From: Lachnospiraceae bacterium
Lineage (GTDB): Bacteria; Bacillota; Clostridia; Lachnospirales; Lachnospiraceae
Assembly: GCA_022776445.1 (NCBI GenBank)
Contig: JALFHZ010000037.1
Coordinates: 1-51,615, forward strand
DNA length: 51,615 nt
Reading direction: 5' to 3'
Of the stretch, positions 1,238-43,565 are shown in pieces; positions within the stretch are counted from its first letter, which is position 1; each line of letters starts with the position of its first letter. The notes under the pieces were generated by a model, which made no database searches, was not told where the DNA came from, and saw only the letters and a list, made by a program, of their open reading frames with translations. A program made the position numbers and the translations under genes.

Positions 1238-1372
1238 TCTGTCACCTTCTTACTTCCCGTCTGCATCCGAATATTGTTCTCTGTAAGTATGCATTATAAC
1301 CCATGATTCATCATATTGCAAATTAAAAAAAGGAAGAACAGCAAATGCCATTCTCCCAAAATCCACCGTTTC

Positions 1373-2767
1373 TTATCGGTCTCTCACCACCAGGCAATCC
1401 AGATCCGCAAAGAACGGATGCAGCATACCGCAGATATCCGAAGTCGGAAGTACCTCATCCCGCAGGTTGATTCCCAGAACCTCTCTCATAAATGTCTGGC
1501 GATTCATCATCCGCTCATAAGAATCCGGAGCCTGACGCCGGATCTCCTCACGCGTTTCACGATCAGCCAGAATCAGACCGTCCTCCGTGTGAACCCCAAG
1601 TCCCATGCAGGATGCCGGTCTTGCGGTAAAATCACACTGAATCAGCATACCTGATTTCAGAACTGCAGTACCATTCTCCACAAACGGACTGTTCGTCCAT
1701 TCCTCCGTATGAATCAGATGCCCCGGATTCAGAGCAATGCCGAATTCCTCATAGCTTCCTATGACTTCCTTCACTCTGCTCCATACCTCGCCTCCGGTTA
1801 CTCCGATTCCCAGTGATTCGAACCACACTGCCACAGCTTCAAAATAAGTGGCAAACAGTTCTTCCATACAAGATCTGAACTTTTCTTCCAGATCTGCAAA
1901 ATTTCTGGCATATAACCCAACCCGATGAATCTGCGCATAACGGTAACCCATACCGAATGCAATCGGGCCGCCCATTTTCAGCGTCCGATGATAATCCGGA
2001 CTCAAAATACCTTTTCCGTAAAAACAGATATTCGGGTAAGTCGGACACGGTTCACCGTCAATATTGAACAACTGCGATGCCTCAATTTCTGTCATTCCTT
2101 CCTTCAGACCACAGACAAAATCCCAGGTTTTTCTGCTGGCTTTCGTCGATGCAATCTCAGACAGAATCAGCGTCTTCACATCGTGAACGGTTCTCAGGCC
2201 GCAGTGATTGTCCATCATCAGCCAGTTGGCATTCTCCATTGTACATCCGCTTGCCTGAAGTGCCCCTATGATATAAGCAGGTACTTCAAACATATGCTTC
2301 GGATCATCTGTTTCCAATTCCGAAAATGATTTCCAACCAAGCACTCCGACATTGGCAGATGCATCAATACCAAAATCCCCCAGAATTTCTGTCAGCTTCT
2401 TCGATTTTCCCCGGCCCTGTCCCATCGGACTTAACGACTGGAACAATACCTTTTCATGTGCAACAGTAATGCACTGGGACTGCCCCATTCCTTCATTTCC
2501 GACAATCAGCCACGGAAGACTTCCCTTCTTCAGCAGCATCATGCACTCTTCGTAGCGCGGATCGTATCCCGTGATATACTCCAGATTGGAAAAATGCTCC
2601 TTATCTGCATAAATAAGCAGATGGGAATATTGGGAAGCCGCATCCAGCAGCTTCCCAATACGTCCCTCATAATCTTCTTTTGTAATGACCGGAGCATGAT
2701 CATATCGGAGCGGGATTCCCTCATTCATGATACCATGGTGTCTGATACAGGTCATCCGTTTCTTCAT
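1373..2767 (-). CDS. M24-family (creatinase/aminopeptidase P fold) protein, probably not a canonical metallopeptidase
   Basis: 464 aa; N-terminal creatinase-like domain (LEYITGYDPRYEE...), C-terminal pita-bread motifs GHLIHTEEW and GLGVHTEDGLIL. Confidence 0.7.
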   Translation of the reverse strand: MKKRMTCIRHHGIMNEGIPLRYDHAPVITKEDYEGRIGKLLDAASQYSHLLIYADKEHFSNLEYITGYDPRYEECMMLLKKGSLPWLIVGNEGMGQSQCITVAHEKVLFQSLSPMGQGRGKSKKLTEILGDFGIDASANVGVLGWKSFSELETDDPKHMFEVPAYIIGALQASGCTMENANWLMMDNHCGLRTVHDVKTLILSEIASTKASRKTWDFVCGLKEGMTEIEASQLFNIDGEPCPTYPNICFYGKGILSPDYHRTLKMGGPIAFGMGYRYAQIHRVGLYARNFADLEEKFRSCMEELFATYFEAVAVWFESLGIGVTGGEVWSRVKEVIGSYEEFGIALNPGHLIHTEEWTNSPFVENGTAVLKSGMLIQCDFTARPASCMGLGVHTEDGLILADRETREEIRRQAPDSYERMMNRQTFMREVLGINLRDEVLPTSDICGMLHPFFADLDCLVVRDR

Positions 2768-2778
2768 TCTGCTCCTCC

Positions 2779-3831
2779 TTATTCACCAAGTGCTTCTCTC
2801 TCTTCAATCTCAGCCGGAGCGTACAGCTTCACTTCTTCTCTGTGCTCCCATTTACCCGGGTTGTGATCATTGCGCTCTTCGATGTGAATCGCAAAACCTG
2901 CCAGATCATCCTTCAGATAAATTACATACGGCTTTCCATTCCACGGTTTTACACTGTCGTAATTAAACTCGATGCCCTTCTTCTCCAGATAGAAGATCGC
3001 TCTTTCCAGATTGTCAGTAAAGTAACCCAGATGACCATGCTCCGTTCTTACTTTAAACCGCTGTTTGGTAATTTCTACTTCATGTCCTACGTAAGAAGAA
3101 CTTCTGGTATTGCCCAGAATCAGATCAAATGTATCTGCCAGACGGAAGATTGCATCATAGCCCGCTCTCACCTTGTCCACATTAATGCCAACATGAGCAA
3201 ACGCGAAATTCAATACTCCAAATACAGCATCACGAGCCAGTTTGCGGATCTCATCGTATTCGCCTGCGTTCAGCAGATTAGCCGGAACAATCCAGGTACC
3301 GCCGCATGCGATAACATTCGGATTCATCAGATATTCCCGCATATTAGACGGTTTCACACCGCCGGTCGGCATAAATTTCACACCCTTGAATACAGATGCC
3401 AGAGAATTGATATAAGCAACTCCGCCAGCTGCTTCAGCCGGGAAGAATTTTACTGCTTTCAGTCCGCAGGAAACTGCCATCTGAACTTCGGTCGGTGTTG
3501 CGCAGCCCGGCATTACACAAATGTCATTCTCTACACAATACTTAACAACTGCCTCTACAAAACACGGAGATACAATAAAGTCAGCGCCAGCTTCCACAGC
3601 AGCTTTTACCTGATCAACCGTTGTTACCGTACCTGCACCAATCAGCATTTCCGGATATTCCTTGCGGATTGCGGCAATCGCCTCTGCTGCACAGTCGGTA
3701 CGGAAGGTAATCTCAGCCGCTTCCAGCTCTCCGTCACAAAGTGCCTTTGCCAGCGGCAGTGCCTGCTCCAGTTTCTCAATTTTTACAACCGGAATCACAC
3801 CATAATTTTCAATTCTTTTTAATACGTCCAT
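2779..3831 (-). CDS. KDPG/KHG aldolase fused to a C-terminal VOC (glyoxalase-like) domain
   Basis: MDVLKRIENYGVIPVVKIEKLEQALPLAKAL...GAGTVTTVDQVKAAVEAGADFIVSP...KFFPAE typical of Eda; C-terminal AFAHVGINVDKVRAGYDAIFRLADTF...GHLGYFTDNLERAIFYLEKKG is VOC-like. Confidence 0.8.
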   Translation of the reverse strand: MDVLKRIENYGVIPVVKIEKLEQALPLAKALCDGELEAAEITFRTDCAAEAIAAIRKEYPEMLIGAGTVTTVDQVKAAVEAGADFIVSPCFVEAVVKYCVENDICVMPGCATPTEVQMAVSCGLKAVKFFPAEAAGGVAYINSLASVFKGVKFMPTGGVKPSNMREYLMNPNVIACGGTWIVPANLLNAGEYDEIRKLARDAVFGVLNFAFAHVGINVDKVRAGYDAIFRLADTFDLILGNTRSSSYVGHEVEITKQRFKVRTEHGHLGYFTDNLERAIFYLEKKGIEFNYDSVKPWNGKPYVIYLKDDLAGFAIHIEERNDHNPGKWEHREEVKLYAPAEIEEREALGE

Positions 3832-3879
3832 TTTCCTATCCCCTAAACTATATTTATTTAAAATCAACAGTTACCATGA

Positions 3880-5787
3880 TTATGCCGCAGATGCAGCTTT
3901 TGCTTTTTTCGCTGCCGCTTTTTCAAAGAAAACAATCAGCAGCAATCCGCCTACACCAATAACGTCTGTAATGGTTTCAGGAATGATCAACATCATCGCC
4001 AATGCAAAAGTTACAGTTCTCATCCATACCGGCATCGGACGGAACAGGAAGCCGGAAACCGTAACAGAAAGACCAAATACACCTGCAAACAATGTTATGG
4101 TAGGCTGAATTATATCAACCAAAGAACCTTGCAGAAGAAGTGCTGGCTGGTACGCAAACGCAAATGGTACCAGGAATGCCACCAATGCATAAGTAAAACC
4201 TGTCCAGCCGGTCTTCCAGGAATCTGCTCCTGCAATACCTGCCGCTGTAAAAGAAGCAAGACATACAGGCGGCGTAATCTGCGCCATAACACCGAAATAA
4301 AAGCAAAACATATGAGCAACTATTGGTGAAAGCTTCAGCTTCAACATAACAGGTACAAATAATACTACAGCAATCAGGTACGCTGCCGTTGTCGGCAATG
4401 CCATACCCAGAAGCATACATCCGATCATGGTAATTAACAGAGCCAGAATCAGATACTGTCCGCCGACAACTGCTACAACCTCTGAAAACTTCGTTGCCAA
4501 ACCAGTTTGTACACAAGCCGCAATGATAATACCGCAAGCTGCTGTCGGCAATGCAATGTTTGCAGCCTGTTTAATACCATCTTCAAATGCATCAATCAAT
4601 ACCTCTTTGCTGACCCCACGTCCCGGAACCAGATTCAGCACCAGAACTGCTACGGTTGCCACAATTGCAGAACGTCTTAAAGACTGTCCCGACATTACCA
4701 TATAAACCAGAATAGCTGCCGGAATCAACAAATACAATCTCGGTACAATCGGATTTACATCAAACTTCAAATCTTCTGCATTAACTTTTCTTCCCGGATT
4801 AAGATGAACATTTTTTCTGGCAATTAAATCTACAAGAATAAACACGGAAAGATAATAAGCCAGTGCAGGAATCAAAGCAGCCATGGCAACTTCTCCATAA
4901 CCGATTCCCAGAAGTTCAGCCATAATGAATGCGCCAACACCCATGATCGGCGGCATAATCTGACCACCTGTAGAAGCTACAGACTCAATTGCACCTGCCT
5001 GATGCGGCTCATAACCTGCTTTTTTCATCATCGGAATCGTCATAACACCGGTAGTCGAAACATTTGCTACCGCACTTCCGCTTACCATTCCCATCAGTCC
5101 GGAAGACAGAACTGCTGCCTTTGCAGGTCCGCCCGAGTTCGGATTACTGAACTTCATACCGATATCAATCAGACACTGTCCGCCTCCGCACTCAGCAAAA
5201 AAAGCACCAAACATCATAAACCAGAAGATGAAGCTTGCAGTTGTTGCCAATGGTGTACCAAACAGACCGTCTGTAGTCATTGTCATGATCTCACAGAACT
5301 GCTTGATGGAAAAGCCATTGAACTTCATGAATCCCGGATAATATTTTCCAAAGAAACAATAAGCCAGGAAGAATAATACAAATGCCAGAAGATTCCAGCC
5401 GATTACTCTGCGAACTGCTTCCAGCAAAAATACGATCAGAAACAGTGTAATCATTTTATCCTCAATCTGCACCGGAGAGATATGAGGAATTCTGGTGATA
5501 ATACGGGTCTGTTCCATATAATAGAAAACAGATACCCAGATCAGAATCGCAATCATCACAAAATCCAGAAGCCGCAGAACCTTCACTTTATCACTAAAAG
5601 GAAACGGCTTGTTAATAAACACAATCGATAATCCAAACGCCAAAAAGACCGGCGAAAGCACCATCGGGTGAAGCGACTCCACAAGGCTGAAATAGAGCAT
5701 GAAAATCAACCACACTGTACCAACTCCAAGTGTCGCATTCTTTTTGAATTTCTTGTCATTAAGTTCCATACGAACCCTCCTTCTCAC
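3880..5787 (-). CDS. TRAP transporter fused permease (4TM/12TM, DctQM fusion)
   Basis: 635 aa, many TM segments; GGQIMPPIMGVGAFIMAELLGIGYGEVAMAALIPALAYY motif of TRAP fused permeases. Confidence 0.9.
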   Translation of the reverse strand: MRRRVRMELNDKKFKKNATLGVGTVWLIFMLYFSLVESLHPMVLSPVFLAFGLSIVFINKPFPFSDKVKVLRLLDFVMIAILIWVSVFYYMEQTRIITRIPHISPVQIEDKMITLFLIVFLLEAVRRVIGWNLLAFVLFFLAYCFFGKYYPGFMKFNGFSIKQFCEIMTMTTDGLFGTPLATTASFIFWFMMFGAFFAECGGGQCLIDIGMKFSNPNSGGPAKAAVLSSGLMGMVSGSAVANVSTTGVMTIPMMKKAGYEPHQAGAIESVASTGGQIMPPIMGVGAFIMAELLGIGYGEVAMAALIPALAYYLSVFILVDLIARKNVHLNPGRKVNAEDLKFDVNPIVPRLYLLIPAAILVYMVMSGQSLRRSAIVATVAVLVLNLVPGRGVSKEVLIDAFEDGIKQAANIALPTAACGIIIAACVQTGLATKFSEVVAVVGGQYLILALLITMIGCMLLGMALPTTAAYLIAVVLFVPVMLKLKLSPIVAHMFCFYFGVMAQITPPVCLASFTAAGIAGADSWKTGWTGFTYALVAFLVPFAFAYQPALLLQGSLVDIIQPTITLFAGVFGLSVTVSGFLFRPMPVWMRTVTFALAMMLIIPETITDVIGVGGLLLIVFFEKAAAKKAKAASAA

Positions 5788-5993: not shown

Positions 5994-6539
5994 ATGAATA
6001 CTCAATCATGGAATGTATTACCATCTACCAGACCTTCCTCCCGTTTTACGGACGACCTAACCAACCGCTGGATGCTGGTTACTGCCGGTAAACCAGAGGG
6101 TCTGGGAACGATGACTATAAGCTGGGGCGGAAGCGGGTTTATCTGGAATAAGGATGTTGTTTTTCTCGTTATCCGCAATTCAAGAAACACCCTGACTTAT
6201 TTAAAGCGATATCCAACGTTCAGTCTGACTCTGTTTGACGAGTCCTATCATGATCAATTATATTTTTGCGGTCGAAATTCCGGACGTACAGTTGATAAGA
6301 TTTCCCATTGCAATTTCACCCCACGATTTTACGGTGAAGAGGAAACCCCTTATTTTGAAGAAGCACAGTCCGTTATGATCTGCCGCCAGCTTTTCCGTAC
6401 CACCGTTGAGCAAACAGATTTCCTCGACAGCTTCCCTTCTCAGATTTGGGAAACCTGGTACAATACCGGTATTCATAAAGGGGATAAGCATCAGCTTATC
6501 ATTGCCTCAATAGAAAAAATCATGACGAAAGGAGATTAG
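5994..6539 (+). CDS. Flavin reductase-like domain protein
   Basis: 181 aa; NRWMLVTAG...NTMTISWGG-type N-terminus and the FLVIRNSRNTLTYLKR region. Confidence 0.75.
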   Translation: MNTQSWNVLPSTRPSSRFTDDLTNRWMLVTAGKPEGLGTMTISWGGSGFIWNKDVVFLVIRNSRNTLTYLKRYPTFSLTLFDESYHDQLYFCGRNSGRTVDKISHCNFTPRFYGEEETPYFEEAQSVMICRQLFRTTVEQTDFLDSFPSQIWETWYNTGIHKGDKHQLIIASIEKIMTKGD

Positions 6540-6543
6540 GAAT

Positions 6544-7227
6544 ATGCCAAAGATTAAAGAACCGCATCCGTCACTGGTGGACGCTGCATATGAGAAAATT
6601 CGGTCTGATCTTTCCAGTAACGTATTAAAACCCGGGCAGAAAATTATCTTTCAGGATCTTGTAAAACGTTACGAAATCAGTGAAACACCAATTAAGCAGG
6701 CTTTAAATCGTATGGTTGTTGAAGGACTGGTAGAATCCATTCCACGTAAAGGCATGCGAATTAAACCTATTTCTATCCAGGATTATAATGAAACCATGGA
6801 TATCCGATACATGCTGGAGAGCTTCTTTGCCCCGGTTATTATGGAAGCAGTCAGCTATCATCCGGAATATCTGGACGAACTGCAGGCAAATATCAACAAA
6901 CAATACCGTGCTATTGAAATTGGGACAACGGAATTAAACGACTTCTTAGAGATCTACAGCGTGGATCATGAATTCCATCGAATCTTTCTGAAATGCGCAA
7001 ACCACAAGCGTGCACTTCAAGTATACGATACCATCGGAGCCCATACTTTTTCTTATTTCCTTTATAACAAAAAACCAAAAAGCAAACTGATCGCTGGAGT
7101 TCAGGAACATGAAGAAATACTGGATGCATTGAAAAAACAGGATCTGGATGCTCTCCAAAAAGCAATTCTGCATCATATCGATGGTGCAAGAACCAGTATC
7201 AATTATACGCTGGAACGTATTAATTAA
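6544..7227 (+). CDS. GntR family transcriptional regulator (FCD domain)
   Basis: AYEKIRSDLSSNVLKPGQKIIFQDLVKRYEISETPIKQALNRMVVEGLVESIPRKGMRI wHTH followed by a helical FCD domain. Confidence 0.9.
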   Translation: MPKIKEPHPSLVDAAYEKIRSDLSSNVLKPGQKIIFQDLVKRYEISETPIKQALNRMVVEGLVESIPRKGMRIKPISIQDYNETMDIRYMLESFFAPVIMEAVSYHPEYLDELQANINKQYRAIEIGTTELNDFLEIYSVDHEFHRIFLKCANHKRALQVYDTIGAHTFSYFLYNKKPKSKLIAGVQEHEEILDALKKQDLDALQKAILHHIDGARTSINYTLERIN

Positions 7228-7284: not shown

Positions 7285-8265
7285 TTATTTCAGATTTAAT
7301 TTCGGCAGCACATCTTTATTTACCAGATTCGGCACTTTGCCATACTCAAAGTAATCAATGATATTTCTTCCTGCTGCAGCAACCATACCTGCTTTGTCTT
7401 CAATGGTACCGGTAGCCATGTGCGCAGTAACAACCACATTGCGCATATCCAGCAATTCCTGAGGAATATTCGGCTCATGCTCAAATACATCCAGTCCAAC
7501 ACCAGCGAGTTTGCCTGCCTGCAGATGTTTAATCAATGCCTGCTCATCAATGATCTGGCCACGTCCCTGATTGAACAGATAAGCGTCATCCTTCATCATA
7601 TTCAGAGTCTTCTCATTAATCATATGGAAAGACTCATCATTCAGAGGAGCATTGATAAATACTGCATCGGAAGTTCTCAGCAGTTCTTCCAGGCTAACCA
7701 GTTTTGCATCACCAAGGAAGCCTTCCAGCTCAGCACCTACAGAATGTCTGTTGTAGTAGATAATCTTCATACCAAATGCCAGCATACGTTTTGCAACGCC
7801 GCGACCGATTCTGCCCATGCCGATGATACCCAGAGTCTTTCCTCTCAGAGAATGTCCCAGGTTCGCAACAGGCCCCCACGGAAGCCCCGGAATGGTTCTC
7901 AGATTGTAGTTGGTCTGCGGAATATTTCTCATGGTACTTGCAATCAGAACTGCACCAAACTCTGCAGTCACTTCATCAACTGCATGCATATTTGCTACAA
8001 CAATTCCTTTCTCTGTTGCATAATTTAAATCCACATTATCATAGCCCTTACCGAATGTGCAGATAATCTTCAGTTCCGGCATTGCATCAATGACTTCTTT
8101 GTCTACTTTAAAGACCGGGCATACAATGGCCTCATAATCTTTAGCAATTTCAATGATTTCCTGACGCGGCTTTTTCTCCTTCGGACAGTAAATCTGATAG
8201 CCCAGATCCTGCATTTCTTTTAATCCGCTTTCAATCATCGGATGGGTAAATAATACTTTTCTCAT
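7285..8265 (-). CDS. D-2-hydroxyacid dehydrogenase (NAD-binding)
   Basis: GKTLGIIGMGRIGRGVAKRMLAFGMKIIYYNR Rossmann motif; NQGRGQIID; FEHEP; TAHMATGT. Confidence 0.9.
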   Translation of the reverse strand: MRKVLFTHPMIESGLKEMQDLGYQIYCPKEKKPRQEIIEIAKDYEAIVCPVFKVDKEVIDAMPELKIICTFGKGYDNVDLNYATEKGIVVANMHAVDEVTAEFGAVLIASTMRNIPQTNYNLRTIPGLPWGPVANLGHSLRGKTLGIIGMGRIGRGVAKRMLAFGMKIIYYNRHSVGAELEGFLGDAKLVSLEELLRTSDAVFINAPLNDESFHMINEKTLNMMKDDAYLFNQGRGQIIDEQALIKHLQAGKLAGVGLDVFEHEPNIPQELLDMRNVVVTAHMATGTIEDKAGMVAAAGRNIIDYFEYGKVPNLVNKDVLPKLNLK

Positions 8266-8315: not shown

Positions 8316-9440
8316 TTAGTGCTCCCAGCCCTGTTCTTCGTAGTACTTGATTGCGCCTGGATGCAGAGCCATACCATTACGTCCCGGTTCACCAGATTTC
8401 TCCGGAACAAAGTATACGCCAAGAGCCGGAACCTGCTCTACCAGAGCCTCTTTATTCTCACAAATTGCTTTTACGATAGCATAAACAACTTCATCCGGCA
8501 AATCTTTGTTACATACTGCGGTAGAACACTGAAGTGCGGTCTTAAGCGGCTTAGTCTGTCCGTTCCAGCTTCCAGCCTCAATCTCAGATAATACATATCC
8601 GCATGCTTCCAGATTCTTCAGAGTCTCATCAGAAAGCTGAGCAAAATACATATTGGTGGTCATCGTAAGCTCAGATAATGCAGCCTGTCCCAGTCCAACA
8701 ACATCAAGACAAACATCTGCACGTCCTTCTTTCAGCAGATCTGCCATATCGTTCGGTGCAACCTGAGTAACTTCTCCACCCCATTTTCTGATATCATCAT
8801 AGGTGATGCCAAAGGTTCCTAAAAGTTTCTGGATACCCATCTCGCTTGCAGAACCCGGTGCTTTTGTAACTGCACGGAACGGAACTTTATTCTCGATCAA
8901 TTCTTCCAGTGTGGTATAACCGGTCTTCTTCTGGAAAGAATCCGTAAACATAATCAGGAAATGTGCATAGTCAGTACCTGCAAACATACCCAGAGTATTT
9001 TTCAGAGGTTCCATACCGCCATACTCACCGTTTACCAGCATTCTGTCAGTAACACTGATACCCTCACCAATGTCAGCCTGTCCCTCTTCTACCAGTAAGG
9101 TACCTGCCAGACCGCCGGAAGAAATCGGCAGAATCTCTAACTCCCAACCTTCCGGGAGATTCTGATTAATAACAGATGCGAACGCACTTACACGAACATA
9201 TCCGGTGGTACCAACAGACTGTGAGGCAAACGTAATTTTTCTCGGCTCTGCTGCCGGTGCTGCTGCCTCAGTCTTTTCCTCTGCTTTTTCTTCTGCCTTT
9301 GTCTCCGCCTTCGTTTCTGCCGGGGCTGCTGCCTCAGTCTTTGCAGGCTCTGCCGGTTTCTCAGAAGAACCACATCCGGTTACCATGCCTGATACCATTA
9401 CTGCTGCCATTGCCAGCGCTGCCAATTTTTTCAATCTCAT
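8316..9440 (-). CDS. TAXI-family TRAP transporter solute-binding lipoprotein
   Basis: Lipobox VTGCGSSE; ITFASQSVGTTGYVRVSAFASVINQNLP...; Ala/Glu-rich linker. Confidence 0.85.
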   Translation of the reverse strand: MRLKKLAALAMAAVMVSGMVTGCGSSEKPAEPAKTEAAAPAETKAETKAEEKAEEKTEAAAPAAEPRKITFASQSVGTTGYVRVSAFASVINQNLPEGWELEILPISSGGLAGTLLVEEGQADIGEGISVTDRMLVNGEYGGMEPLKNTLGMFAGTDYAHFLIMFTDSFQKKTGYTTLEELIENKVPFRAVTKAPGSASEMGIQKLLGTFGITYDDIRKWGGEVTQVAPNDMADLLKEGRADVCLDVVGLGQAALSELTMTTNMYFAQLSDETLKNLEACGYVLSEIEAGSWNGQTKPLKTALQCSTAVCNKDLPDEVVYAIVKAICENKEALVEQVPALGVYFVPEKSGEPGRNGMALHPGAIKYYEEQGWEH

Positions 9441-9467: not shown

Positions 9468-9896
9468 TTACTTATTCATTTCGTGACGAATTGCATCTAC
9501 ACCCAATAAATAGCAATTAATTCCAAATCCACAGATCACACCTGTGCAGTTCTTTCCCGGGACAGTAGGCTCACCTGTTTTTAAAATATTCACAAGATGA
9601 ACTTCTACCGTTGGAATATCAACCGTCCCCAGCGTTACACGAATTGCGTGGCTGTACTGAGTAAATGGTCCCGGATTGATAATGATTCCATCATAAACTC
9701 CATCCGCTTCCTGGATCTTGTCAACAATCTCTCCCTCATGATTGCTCTGGAATGCATCTACCTGAATATCATATCCGGCAGCATATTCCTTCACTTTATC
9801 GACAATATAATCCAGTCCCTTTCCTCCATAAAGACTAGGATCCCTTTTGCCGATGCGGTTCAGATTTGCACCATTAATCAGCAGAATCTTTCCCAT
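9468..9896 (-). CDS. Type II 3-dehydroquinate dehydratase-like (AroQ-like) protein, divergent active site
   Basis: KILLINGANLNRIGKRDPSLYGG...FQSNHEGEIVDKIQEA..DGIIINPGPFTQYSHAIR...VEVHLVN...GVICGFG. Confidence 0.8.
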   Translation of the reverse strand: MGKILLINGANLNRIGKRDPSLYGGKGLDYIVDKVKEYAAGYDIQVDAFQSNHEGEIVDKIQEADGVYDGIIINPGPFTQYSHAIRVTLGTVDIPTVEVHLVNILKTGEPTVPGKNCTGVICGFGINCYLLGVDAIRHEMNK

Positions 9897-9925
9897 GTTT
9901 TCTCCTCCTCTTTTTATTTTTATCC

Positions 9926-10681
9926 CTATCTTCCCAAGTATCCGCCATCTACAGTGATAATTGCACCATTCAGATAATCAGATGCCTTAGAAGCTAAAAA
10001 TACGACCGGACCTTTCATATCTTCCGGAGTTCCCCATCTTCCCTGAGGAATTCTCTTTAAAATCTCATCATTTCTGCCTGCGTCATTCATAATTGCAGTA
10101 TTCATAACGGTTGCCATATAACCGGGAGCAAGTGCATTGACATTAATATTCTTGCCAGCCCATTCATTTGCAAATGCCTTCGTAATCTGTGCAACACCAC
10201 CCTTACTTGCTGCATAAGCCGGAACCGTATAACCACCAAAATAACTCAGCATAGAAGCAATGTTGATGATTTTTCCTCCACCGTTTTTCAGATAGTGCTG
10301 TGCAGCCAGCTGACAGAGACGGAATACAGAAGTCAGATTGATGTTAATTACAAAATCCCAATCCTCTTTCGGGAATTCTTCACTCTTATGACGTTTCTGA
10401 ACACCTGCTGCATTTACAATGATATCCAGACCATTCATTGCAGCAACACTTTCATGGAATGCATTCACCAGAGATTCCTCATCTCCCAGATTTGCAATGA
10501 TTCCATGACATTTGAACCCTCTGTCATTAAATTCTTTTACAACTTCCGGCGTTTTTGGCGATATATCAATAATCGTAACTTCCGCACCGTTCTCCATCAG
10601 ACCTTCTGCCATTCCATGTGCAAGTCCCTGAGCTGCTCCGGTAACAATTGCTTTCTTACCTGTAATATCAAACATATTCAT
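9926..10681 (-). CDS. SDR family oxidoreductase, KduD-like (2-deoxy-D-gluconate 3-dehydrogenase-like)
   Basis: MNMFDITGKKAIVTGAAQGLAHGMAEGL...YAASKGGVAQITKAFANEWAGKNINVNALAPGYMAT; start chosen at MNMF. Confidence 0.85.
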   Translation of the reverse strand: MNMFDITGKKAIVTGAAQGLAHGMAEGLMENGAEVTIIDISPKTPEVVKEFNDRGFKCHGIIANLGDEESLVNAFHESVAAMNGLDIIVNAAGVQKRHKSEEFPKEDWDFVININLTSVFRLCQLAAQHYLKNGGGKIINIASMLSYFGGYTVPAYAASKGGVAQITKAFANEWAGKNINVNALAPGYMATVMNTAIMNDAGRNDEILKRIPQGRWGTPEDMKGPVVFLASKASDYLNGAIITVDGGYLGR

Positions 10682-10724
10682 CTGACATGTCCTCCCTTCT
10701 GAATTTCCCGTACCGCTGGCTTGA

Positions 10725-11525
10725 TCAGGTATTTTCATAAACCGGATCAAGTACTGCCAGATCATAACGTCTGCTGGCATGTGAATGTGCCGCTAAAACC
10801 CATAAATAGGTGTTCTGCGTTCCCGGGGATGCAACCGTCGGATGATAACCAACCGGTGCCAGAATCATGCTTCCGCTTCTCACTGTATGAGCAACGATAT
10901 CTTCAACTTCCCCACTCTTTAAATAGCTCACATGGAAACCAAATTTCGGAGCATCCATGTCAAAATAGCAATATACTTCCTCCAGATCCTTCTCATGCTG
11001 ATGTGGCGGCCAGCTGGTCCACGCACCATTGCCGCCCCAGGTAAGACCACATAACAATCTTGATGATTCCATCTCTGGGTTCAGGGTAAAGAATACTTCT
11101 CTCTGCCCTACTCCATGTCCATGAATCTGATGAATTTCTCCTAATGGAAGATCTTTATCAAATTTACGAACAAACGGCTTTCCGTATCCCTCACAAACAG
11201 CTGCACCAATATAGAAGATGCAGTCATCCAGAGCTTCAATTGCAACAGTCATCCCACCTGTGATATAGAAAGAATCTAATTTTACCAGTTCTTCCTCAAA
11301 TGCACTACAGGAAACTTTTGCCATTCCCTTCAACAGTACCGGATTCATCTCCAGTTCTCCGGATTCCAGTTCAAATTTACTGCCCTTATTCAGATTCAGA
11401 CGATAAATATGAGCAACCTTGCAGTCCTGTACTCCCGGCTGAATGCATTTATGAAGACCTTCTGTATCTGGTGAGGTAATATTCCAACCTTCCATTCTTT
11501 TCTTGTTTTCCTGATTCGAAATCAT
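10725..11525 (-). CDS. 5-deoxy-glucuronate isomerase (IolB)/KduI-like cupin isomerase
   Basis: WTSWPPHQHEKDLEEVYCYFDMDAPKFGFHVSYL...GSMILAPVGYHPTVASPGTQNTYLWVLA; RBS ggaaggtgg precedes ATG at 11525 (ORF open to 11543). Confidence 0.8.
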   Translation of the reverse strand: MISNQENKKRMEGWNITSPDTEGLHKCIQPGVQDCKVAHIYRLNLNKGSKFELESGELEMNPVLLKGMAKVSCSAFEEELVKLDSFYITGGMTVAIEALDDCIFYIGAAVCEGYGKPFVRKFDKDLPLGEIHQIHGHGVGQREVFFTLNPEMESSRLLCGLTWGGNGAWTSWPPHQHEKDLEEVYCYFDMDAPKFGFHVSYLKSGEVEDIVAHTVRSGSMILAPVGYHPTVASPGTQNTYLWVLAAHSHASRRYDLAVLDPVYENT

Positions 11526-11625
11526 ACAGACCACCTTCCGCATTATAATTTTTGACTAATTTTTTGATATTTTCTTCACATCTGTTGTTAAAAACATCAT
11601 ATCACAAAAACCTAAATAATTCAAT

Positions 11626-41799: not shown

Positions 41800-43565
41800 C
41801 GAGTAGGGGAGATTTTCTCTCCCCTCTCACACCACCGTACATGCCGTTCGGCATACGGCGGTTCAACACAACTTCAAGGCATGACGCTCGTTGTAATAAT
41901 CAAGACAGCTTATAAGTCCCGCTTTAGCTAATACTTCTTTAGAGATTGCTCTGCTGAAACATGTTTTTGTGGCAACCCAGTAATAACGGTCTCCGCAGTA
42001 TGATGTCAGTCTTGCAAGGTCTTTTCCAATCCCAAGCTTCTGCAATCCCCATTGTCGTTTCTTTGGTACTTTCCACTGCTTCCAGATGATAACTCTAAAC
42101 CTTGTCCTTAGATGTGCGTCGATATCTGCCATTGCTGTTTTCATGGAACCAAGTGCATAATAGTTTATCCAGCCTCTTATCACCTGATTTACCTTCACAA
42201 TCTTGCCCGTAACTGTTCCAGGCATTCTTCTACAGGTCAGCTCTTTTAGCTTGCTTTTGAATTTCTTAACAGAATCCTGATGAGGTCTGCACTTCCATTC
42301 TTTTGCTTTGCTGTCCTTGTAGAATCCGAACCCGAGGTATTTCAGCTTCTGTGGTCTTGTGATATGGGTCTTGGTCATGTTTACCTTCAGTCCCAGCTTC
42401 CTCTGTATCCAGTCCGACACTGTACGCATGACTCTTTTCGCACTCGATTCACTCTTAACTGCGATAACACAGTCATCGGCGTATCTCGTGAAACGGAGTC
42501 CCCTTGCTTCCAGTTCCTTGTCCATAAGCTTATCCTGCGGCACATTGTCGTAAAACTTCTCCAGATCGATATCCACTATCCATTCGTAACCCTCGTTTAA
42601 GTATACGAGCAATTGCCTGATTGCCATTTCGCAGCTTCTGTTCGGTCTGAAACCATAGCTCCATTCCAAAAACAAAGGCTCACACATGGGACTCATCACT
42701 TGCACTATGCCCTGCTGAATGACCCTGTCCATTACGGTCGGAATTCCGAGCTTTCTCACTCCACCGTTAGGTTTGGGTATTTCCACCCGTCTTACCGGCT
42801 GTGGTTTGTACTCCCTGCGTCTGATTTATTCCCTGATATTGTCCCAGTTCTCTTTGATATAATCGCCGAGTTCCTCGACCGTCACTTCGTCTACACCTCC
42901 TGCGCCTTTATTGGCACAGACTCTTTTGTATGCGGCGTTCATGTTGTCTCTGGACAGTATCTTTTCCAACAGTTCCGACATTGCCTTGTGTGCTTTCTCC
43001 TTTCCGTTCCCATGGATTCGCCCTAAGTTACGCAGTACCTACTCATTTACGTTTTGCTCTTCCTGCTGTCAGGTATTCCATGGAGCATACATTTGATTAC
43101 ACGGTTACATTGTTCAGCCCTTTGGCATTGTCCATTTCAGGACTCTGCCTACTACGGCTTCTGCTGACTTCTCACAGTTCGTTGTTACTACGGTAAATGT
43201 TACCGCCTGTGAGACCTCGCGGGATAAGCCTCCCAGTCTTTCCTCGTCTACCTGCCTGATTTACGCGCATGGGTTACGGTTGCCTTTGGGACTTCGCTGT
43301 CATTGGCCAGCTTATCCGCCATACACGCCTTGTATCAGATTTCTGTTCGTCAGGCTACGATTTCGCTATCCCTTCTTCTCGCCTGTACCTCACGATACAA
43401 ACCTTGGAAATCGCTATGGGGTTCGTCGGCAACTACGCCCCTTGTGGACTTTCACCACAGACTGATGGCATGCCCGTCATACCAATAAAAGCAGGCTGCC
43501 CACAACAGACAGTCTGCTTTCTGCATATAGAAGATTCAAATGGCTGGCTTCTTTTACCATAACAC
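41800..43565 (-). mobile_element. Group II intron, approximate bounds
   Basis: Minus-strand domain V GAACCGCCGTATGCCGAACGGCATGTACGGTGGTGTGAGAGG, domain VI-like GGGAGAGAAAATCTCCCCTACTCG, RT ORF upstream; 5' GTGTT-type start near 43565 is tentative. Confidence 0.75.
41863..42981 (-). pseudogene. Group II intron reverse transcriptase/maturase (LtrA-like), degenerate
   Basis: MSELLEKILSRDNMNAAYKRVCANKGAGGVDEVTVEELGDYIKENWDNIRE*IRRREYKPQPVRRVEIPKPNGGVRK...; in-frame TAA at 42826-42828; residues between FYDNVPQDKLM and DKELEARGLRFTRYADD missing. Confidence 0.85.

Follow-up and report, generated by a model that had tools for sequence, protein, structure and literature searches.

A type II dehydroquinase-like protein with altered pocket residues in a catabolic-type operon of a Lachnospiraceae bacterium

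Type II dehydroquinase (AroQ or DHQ2) is a textbook enzyme of the shikimate pathway and an antibacterial target, and databases name every homologue type II 3-dehydroquinate dehydratase. RifJ is homologous to type II AroQ. KdgF, which converts unsaturated uronate to 5-keto-4-deoxyuronate, is a cupin. RifJ is the aminodehydroquinate dehydratase of rifamycin biosynthesis (PMC8788734). In DHQ2, Arg19 and Tyr24 of the lid and Asp88' are essential, Tyr24 being deprotonated by Asp88' and its pKa lowered by Arg108 and Arg112; the C5 hydroxyl of the substrate is contacted by His81 and Arg112 and the C4 hydroxyl by Asp88', while Asn75, the hydroxyl of Ser103 and the NH groups of the 102/103 backbone bind the carboxylate, His101 is the general acid, and Pro11, Asn12 and residue 78 position a water, W1 (PMC6011038).

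The gene described here, termed AroQL (AroQ-like), was found in the window, i.e., the whole 51,615-nucleotide stretch of Lachnospiraceae DNA that was analysed. The following two features define it (residues in M. tuberculosis numbering).

9468..9896, minus strand: AroQL (AroQ-like protein), 142 aa; N12, R19, Y24, N75, E99 and H101 kept, H81Q, D88V, S103V and R108T replaced, R112 deleted
9897..9915, minus strand: ribosome-binding site of AroQL, GAGGAGGAGAAAAC before the ATG, purine-rich, read from the sequence

Family and fold of AroQL

AroQL is a genuine open reading frame with the fold and descent of type II dehydroquinases. The type II signature recognised in an earlier note on this DNA was borne out by a match to Pfam DHquinase_II (E=1.3e-40, 138.8 bits vs a cut-off of 23.3), and the best PDB sequence matches were likewise type II dehydroquinases. 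The predicted structure was confident (pLDDT 90), and a fold search with this model returned type II dehydroquinases (DHQ2, flavodoxin-like) as all of the top 50 matches, with a TM of 0.92 to 4b6r. Compared with DHQ2 from M. tuberculosis, H. pylori and Butyrivibrio crossotus (6hs9), AroQL was alike in fold and length, and its identity to canonical members was approximately 40-50%. The protein scored under the NCBIfam aroQ equivalog cut-off TIGR01088 (139.6 vs 169.85 bits) and cleared the subfamily model NF003805 for type II DHQ dehydratase (152.2 vs 146); one or two subfamily cut-offs were passed.

Phylogenetic analysis placed AroQL and its seven relatives in one clade with support of 100/99; its stem is long, at 0.78 changes per column. 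Pairwise dN/dS among these proteins ranged from 0.015 to 0.12 for pairs with unsaturated dS, values that indicate purifying selection. A pseudogene, or a gene subject to drift, was ruled out by dN/dS and by conservation of the operon.

Pocket residues of AroQL and its relatives

Differences in the pocket were noted when AroQL and these relatives (L032-L038, 73-96% identical) were aligned with 98 canonical homologues, which were drawn from relatives of the AroQL query and are not a random sample. Thus, His81, Asp88, Arg108, Arg112 and Ser/Thr103 were kept in all 98 canonical proteins, whereas the first four occurred in none of the eight AroQL proteins, in which His81->Gln, Asp88->Val, Ser103->Val, Arg108->Thr and deletion of Arg112 were fixed. 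Two of the positions that hold the W1 water were also altered in all eight (Pro11->Ala, residue 78->Pro), and the fixed differences specific to AroQL were mostly at, or adjacent to, these pocket positions. The three motif changes reported in the earlier note were all present. They comprise TQYS for THYS/THTS, in which only the His change matters, as clostridial proteins usually read THYS; HLVN for HLSN; and TGE followed by PTV in place of RE-FRxxS, where a 3-residue deletion removes Arg112. Overlooked at that time were Asp88->Val (IRVTL for IRDAL), Arg108->Thr, Pro11->Ala and residue 78->Pro. Since the changes are common to eight proteins, affect residues kept in 98/98 canonical proteins and accompany a dN/dS of at most 0.12, they are not attributable to chance drift.

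Asn12, Arg19, Asn75, Glu99 and His101 were invariant across all AroQL members. Tyr24 was kept in AroQL from Bacillota, including the window protein, and was gone from both Desulfovibrionaceae members (L037 and L038), the loop of which reads SFGEGE as opposed to SLYGG; Tyr24 was also missing from L028. Read against the published roles, AroQL appears to be without the enolisation and diol-binding half of the pocket and to retain the carboxylate and leaving-group half. The earlier claim that carboxylate contacts had been removed held only for the Ser103 hydroxyl and was otherwise not supported, as Asn75 is kept and the roles of Arg112 are to bind the C5 hydroxyl and to lower the pKa of Tyr24 (PMC6011038).

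These residues bear on two rival explanations. According to one, AroQL would be a non-catalytic structural or regulatory protein, e.g., a ligand sensor or a partner of the isomerase or dehydrogenase encoded beside it. Although the loss of several catalytic residues and the constant company of the same genes are consistent with such a role, the invariance of the remaining polar pocket in all members and the very low dN/dS argue against it, and we regard it as highly improbable. According to the other, AroQL would still dehydrate 3-dehydroquinate, weakly or in catabolism, for quinate/shikimate use or as a backup activity. The type II fold and family matches and the presence of Arg19, Tyr24, His101 and Asn75 favour this explanation, as does an AroQ-like protein from a quinate/shikimate-type cluster of Rhizobium (shikimate dehydrogenase/TIM-barrel/protocatechuate; L129:6989-7432), which carries His81->Phe and Arg112->Tyr and probably dehydrates DHQ. 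Thus, loss of His81 and Arg112 does not by itself exclude DHQ as substrate. In contrast, Asp88, which is essential in characterised enzymes (PMC6011038), is Val in 8/8, Arg108 is lost as well, and some AroQL relatives are even without Tyr24. As judged from the alignment, the decisive loss is that of Asp88', a stronger argument against DHQ than the losses of His81 and Arg112.

The AroQL operon and its distribution

As the earlier note had proposed, AroQL lies outside any aro cluster in an operon of catabolic type, with no aro gene nearby and with genes for an importer and sugar-acid enzymes around it. On the minus strand from 11543 to 1373, the genes are ordered isomerase, short-chain dehydrogenase (SDR), AroQL, TAXI protein and 2-hydroxyacid dehydrogenase, followed by TRAP permease, aldolase and M24-like genes, the last three being separated from the 2-hydroxyacid dehydrogenase gene by genes for a divergent GntR regulator and a flavin reductase.

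10725..11543, minus strand: KduI/IolB-family isomerase, a paralogue under both the KduI and IolB cut-offs, HxH...E...H metal-site pattern kept (profile search)
9926..10780, minus strand: short-chain dehydrogenase closest to KduD, probably starting near 10681, without counterpart in Desulfovibrionaceae operons (profile search)
8316..9440, minus strand: TAXI-family TRAP solute-binding protein with lipoprotein-type signal (TIGR02122, 117.2 vs cut-off 84.35 bits)
7285..8265, minus strand: D-2-hydroxyacid dehydrogenase, glyoxylate reductase-like (profile search)
6544..7227, plus strand: GntR/FCD regulator, divergent (profile search)
5994..6539, plus strand: flavin-reductase-like protein, Flavin_Reduct (profile search)
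3880..5787, minus strand: TRAP permease, fused (TIGR02123, 569 vs cut-off 320.65 bits)
2779..3867, minus strand: KDPG/KHG aldolase, Schiff-base motif VKFFPAEA kept
1373..2767, minus strand: M24-like protein, 464 aa, last gene of the operon, distantly M24/Xaa-Pro-aminopeptidase-like (annotated relatives, 30-37% identity)
1332..1357, minus strand: hairpin resembling a terminator, followed by its T-run; the operon likely ends here (from sequence)

The isomerase scored 34.4 bits with the KduI model NF002091 (cut-off 250) and 78.4 with the IolB model TIGR04378 (cut-off 205), and a canonical KduI with a score of 430.5 bits is encoded elsewhere in the same genome. The M24-like protein gave no Pfam or NCBIfam match; its relatives sit in varied sugar and amino-acid clusters and are uninformative as to substrate, and its structure model was poor (pLDDT 48) and was left out of the analysis. 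The aldolase carries an uncharacterised C-terminal tail (approximately 150 aa), in which a VOC-like arrangement of His and Glu residues was noted by eye. No KDG kinase was found in the window operon. Elsewhere in the window, near mnmG/rsmG, a reverse transcriptase of the group II intron type (YADD; 41863-42786, minus strand) was noted that is possibly shortened internally.

Further evidence against DHQ dehydration came from the operon and from carrier genomes. The operon proteins included neither a known type of quinate/shikimate dehydrogenase nor a dehydroshikimate dehydratase, and quinate/shikimate catabolism was rejected as the purpose of the operon given the absence of these partner genes. 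The suspicion of the earlier note that AroQL does something else than dehydrate 3-dehydroquinate for biosynthesis is supported by the separate dehydroquinase in 9/9 carriers tested (seven type I AroD, two canonical AroQ), on which basis biosynthesis as the only role of AroQL was rejected. The genome of the window, which is 88% complete, encodes a type I AroD that is intact and scores 244 bits vs a cut-off of 139, and no second type II dehydroquinase was found in it. The refuting case named in the earlier note, a genome lacking any other dehydroquinase, therefore does not apply. AroD was present in carriers G014, G021, G820, G821 and G822, plus G013, which bears a diverged AroQL counterpart, and canonical AroQ in carriers G011 and G819. 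With a biosynthetic enzyme encoded elsewhere in the genome, we consider it decidedly unlikely that AroQL still serves as a DHQ dehydratase.

Synteny of the operon extended from Lachnospiraceae, Enterocloster and Flavonifractor to Desulfovibrionaceae, with most genes 55-96% identical and a nearly constant gene set, i.e., TAXI/TRAP importer, KduI/IolB-like isomerase, 2-hydroxyacid dehydrogenase, KDPG/KHG aldolase, M24-like protein and flavin reductase, plus KduD in Bacillota. Gene order was rearranged in Flavonifractor, and the Desulfovibrionaceae operons were without KduD, encoded a different IolB-type isomerase and gave no GntR match. The TRAP permease gene of Enterocloster (L035:13118-14918) was apparently broken in two by a frameshift, possibly an artefact of assembly. 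A minimal operon of four genes (altered AroQ-like protein, TAXI protein, TRAP permease and isomerase) was noted in congener G013 (L126:4518-9319), the isomerase of which is 80% identical to that of the window. The AroQ-like protein of this minimal operon, a second and strongly diverged one of 38% identity, has Tyr24->Leu, Asp88->Glu, Ser103->Ala, Arg108->Lys and Arg112 deleted. The common core of these systems is importer, AroQ-like protein and isomerase.

Since AroQL from Desulfovibrionaceae is nested in a mainly Bacillota group and the whole operon is common to both, horizontal transfer is indicated. The system is rare and patchy: it was found in one of 397 Lachnospiraceae genomes and in 4/24 genomes of the genus, and a search for the operon isomerase found it in one of 391 Clostridia genomes. 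No account of this gene set turned up in the open-access library that was searched.

Altered AroQ-like proteins were also noted in other catabolic settings. Plasmid genes of Klebsiella (KPC plasmid), Pantoea and Rhizobium directly precede a GhrA-type 2-hydroxyacid dehydrogenase gene (L128:6992-8367, L130:7001-8373, L143:5992-7367, L144:5983-7367) and resemble AroQL in their catabolic-looking importer operon, the 2-hydroxyacid dehydrogenase and an altered pocket. Unlike AroQL, they form a separate clade, have an ABC importer and carry Arg19->Asp and His81->Tyr, with Asp88, Arg108 and Arg112 kept; their annotation as 3-dehydroquinate dehydratase is probably wrong. An S. meliloti plasmid gene (L137:4989-5462), the product of which has Asn12->Ser and His81->Thr, lies in a cluster of aromatic-degradation type, with a NIPSNAP gene on one side and a maleylacetate reductase gene on the other.

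Candidate function and meaning of AroQL

On balance, we favour with somewhat better than even confidence the view that AroQL is an enzyme of type II dehydroquinase fold that would no longer make 3-dehydroshikimate and would have been recruited to the catabolism of an imported carboxylated, sugar-acid-like compound. Probably, AroQL would act as a repurposed lyase or hydratase on an imported carboxylate, ahead of the isomerase, the substrate being a candidate only. The substrate carboxylate would dock as in AroQ, and at the carbon that bears it His101 with Asn75 would add or remove water or a different leaving group. Such a step would need no tyrosinate-driven enolisation, which would explain the loss of Tyr24 in two lineages. 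The product would then pass to the KduI/IolB-like isomerase, to KduD where present, and to the KDPG/KHG aldolase, from which the 2-hydroxyacid dehydrogenase would receive pyruvate or a 2-keto acid. Against the lyase or hydratase reading, NF003805 is still passed, Arg19 and Tyr24 remain in the window protein, and a KDG kinase is missing from the window operon.

The same residues and neighbours are consistent with a third rival, in which AroQL acts on the same carboxylate as an isomerase, epimerase or lactonase through His101/Asn75, e.g., by lactone opening or keto-acid tautomerisation before the KduI/IolB-like isomerase. The residues for enolisation have been lost, the acid/base His and the carboxylate anchor are still there, and the operon partners are an isomerase, an SDR, a 2-hydroxyacid dehydrogenase and an aldolase. 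However, we know of no member of the type II dehydroquinase-fold family with such chemistry, and this rival seems to us rather unlikely.

A specific version of the lyase or hydratase reading, speculative and in our view unlikely, is that AroQL hydrates a cyclic unsaturated uronate-type enol ether to a 5-keto-4-deoxyuronate analogue. This is the job done elsewhere by KdgF, the sequence and fold of which are unrelated to those of AroQL, and a shared role before a KduI-type isomerase is a guess. Such hydration would fit the KduI/KduD/aldolase gene set. GH88-type hydrolases are abundant in the genome of the window. The version is weakened by the canonical KduI elsewhere in this genome, as the operon isomerase may therefore not handle ordinary 5-dehydro-4-deoxyglucuronate. 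The ordinary pathway for unsaturated uronates from pectin or GAG was kept only as a sub-hypothesis, given this canonical KduI and the failure of the operon isomerase at both the KduI and IolB cut-offs.

RifJ parallels the recruitment proposed for AroQL, i.e., of an AroQ-type enzyme to a substrate other than DHQ, and differs in serving antibiotic biosynthesis on a close DHQ analogue; the two are likened by role, not by pocket residues. It is possible, and proposed here only tentatively, that with AroQL a new class of enzymes has arisen from the dehydroquinase fold, in the form of a hydratase or lyase without tyrosinate enolisation. It would catalyse the first step inside the cell of an anaerobic pathway for sugar acids that is so far undescribed, in which TAXI/TRAP import is followed by AroQL, the KduI/IolB-like isomerase and the aldolase, and which would have spread horizontally among gut Bacillota and Desulfovibrionaceae.

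AroQL is real and under selection, a variant within a known enzyme family that has, probably, a new substrate and, perhaps, new chemistry, and the database label 3-dehydroquinate dehydratase is probably wrong for it. The system is small and testable, with one soluble enzyme, one binding protein and three to four downstream enzymes. The operon points to a catabolic pathway common to unrelated gut bacteria and, with other AroQ-like lineages of altered pocket also found in catabolic clusters, mis-annotation may be common in this family.
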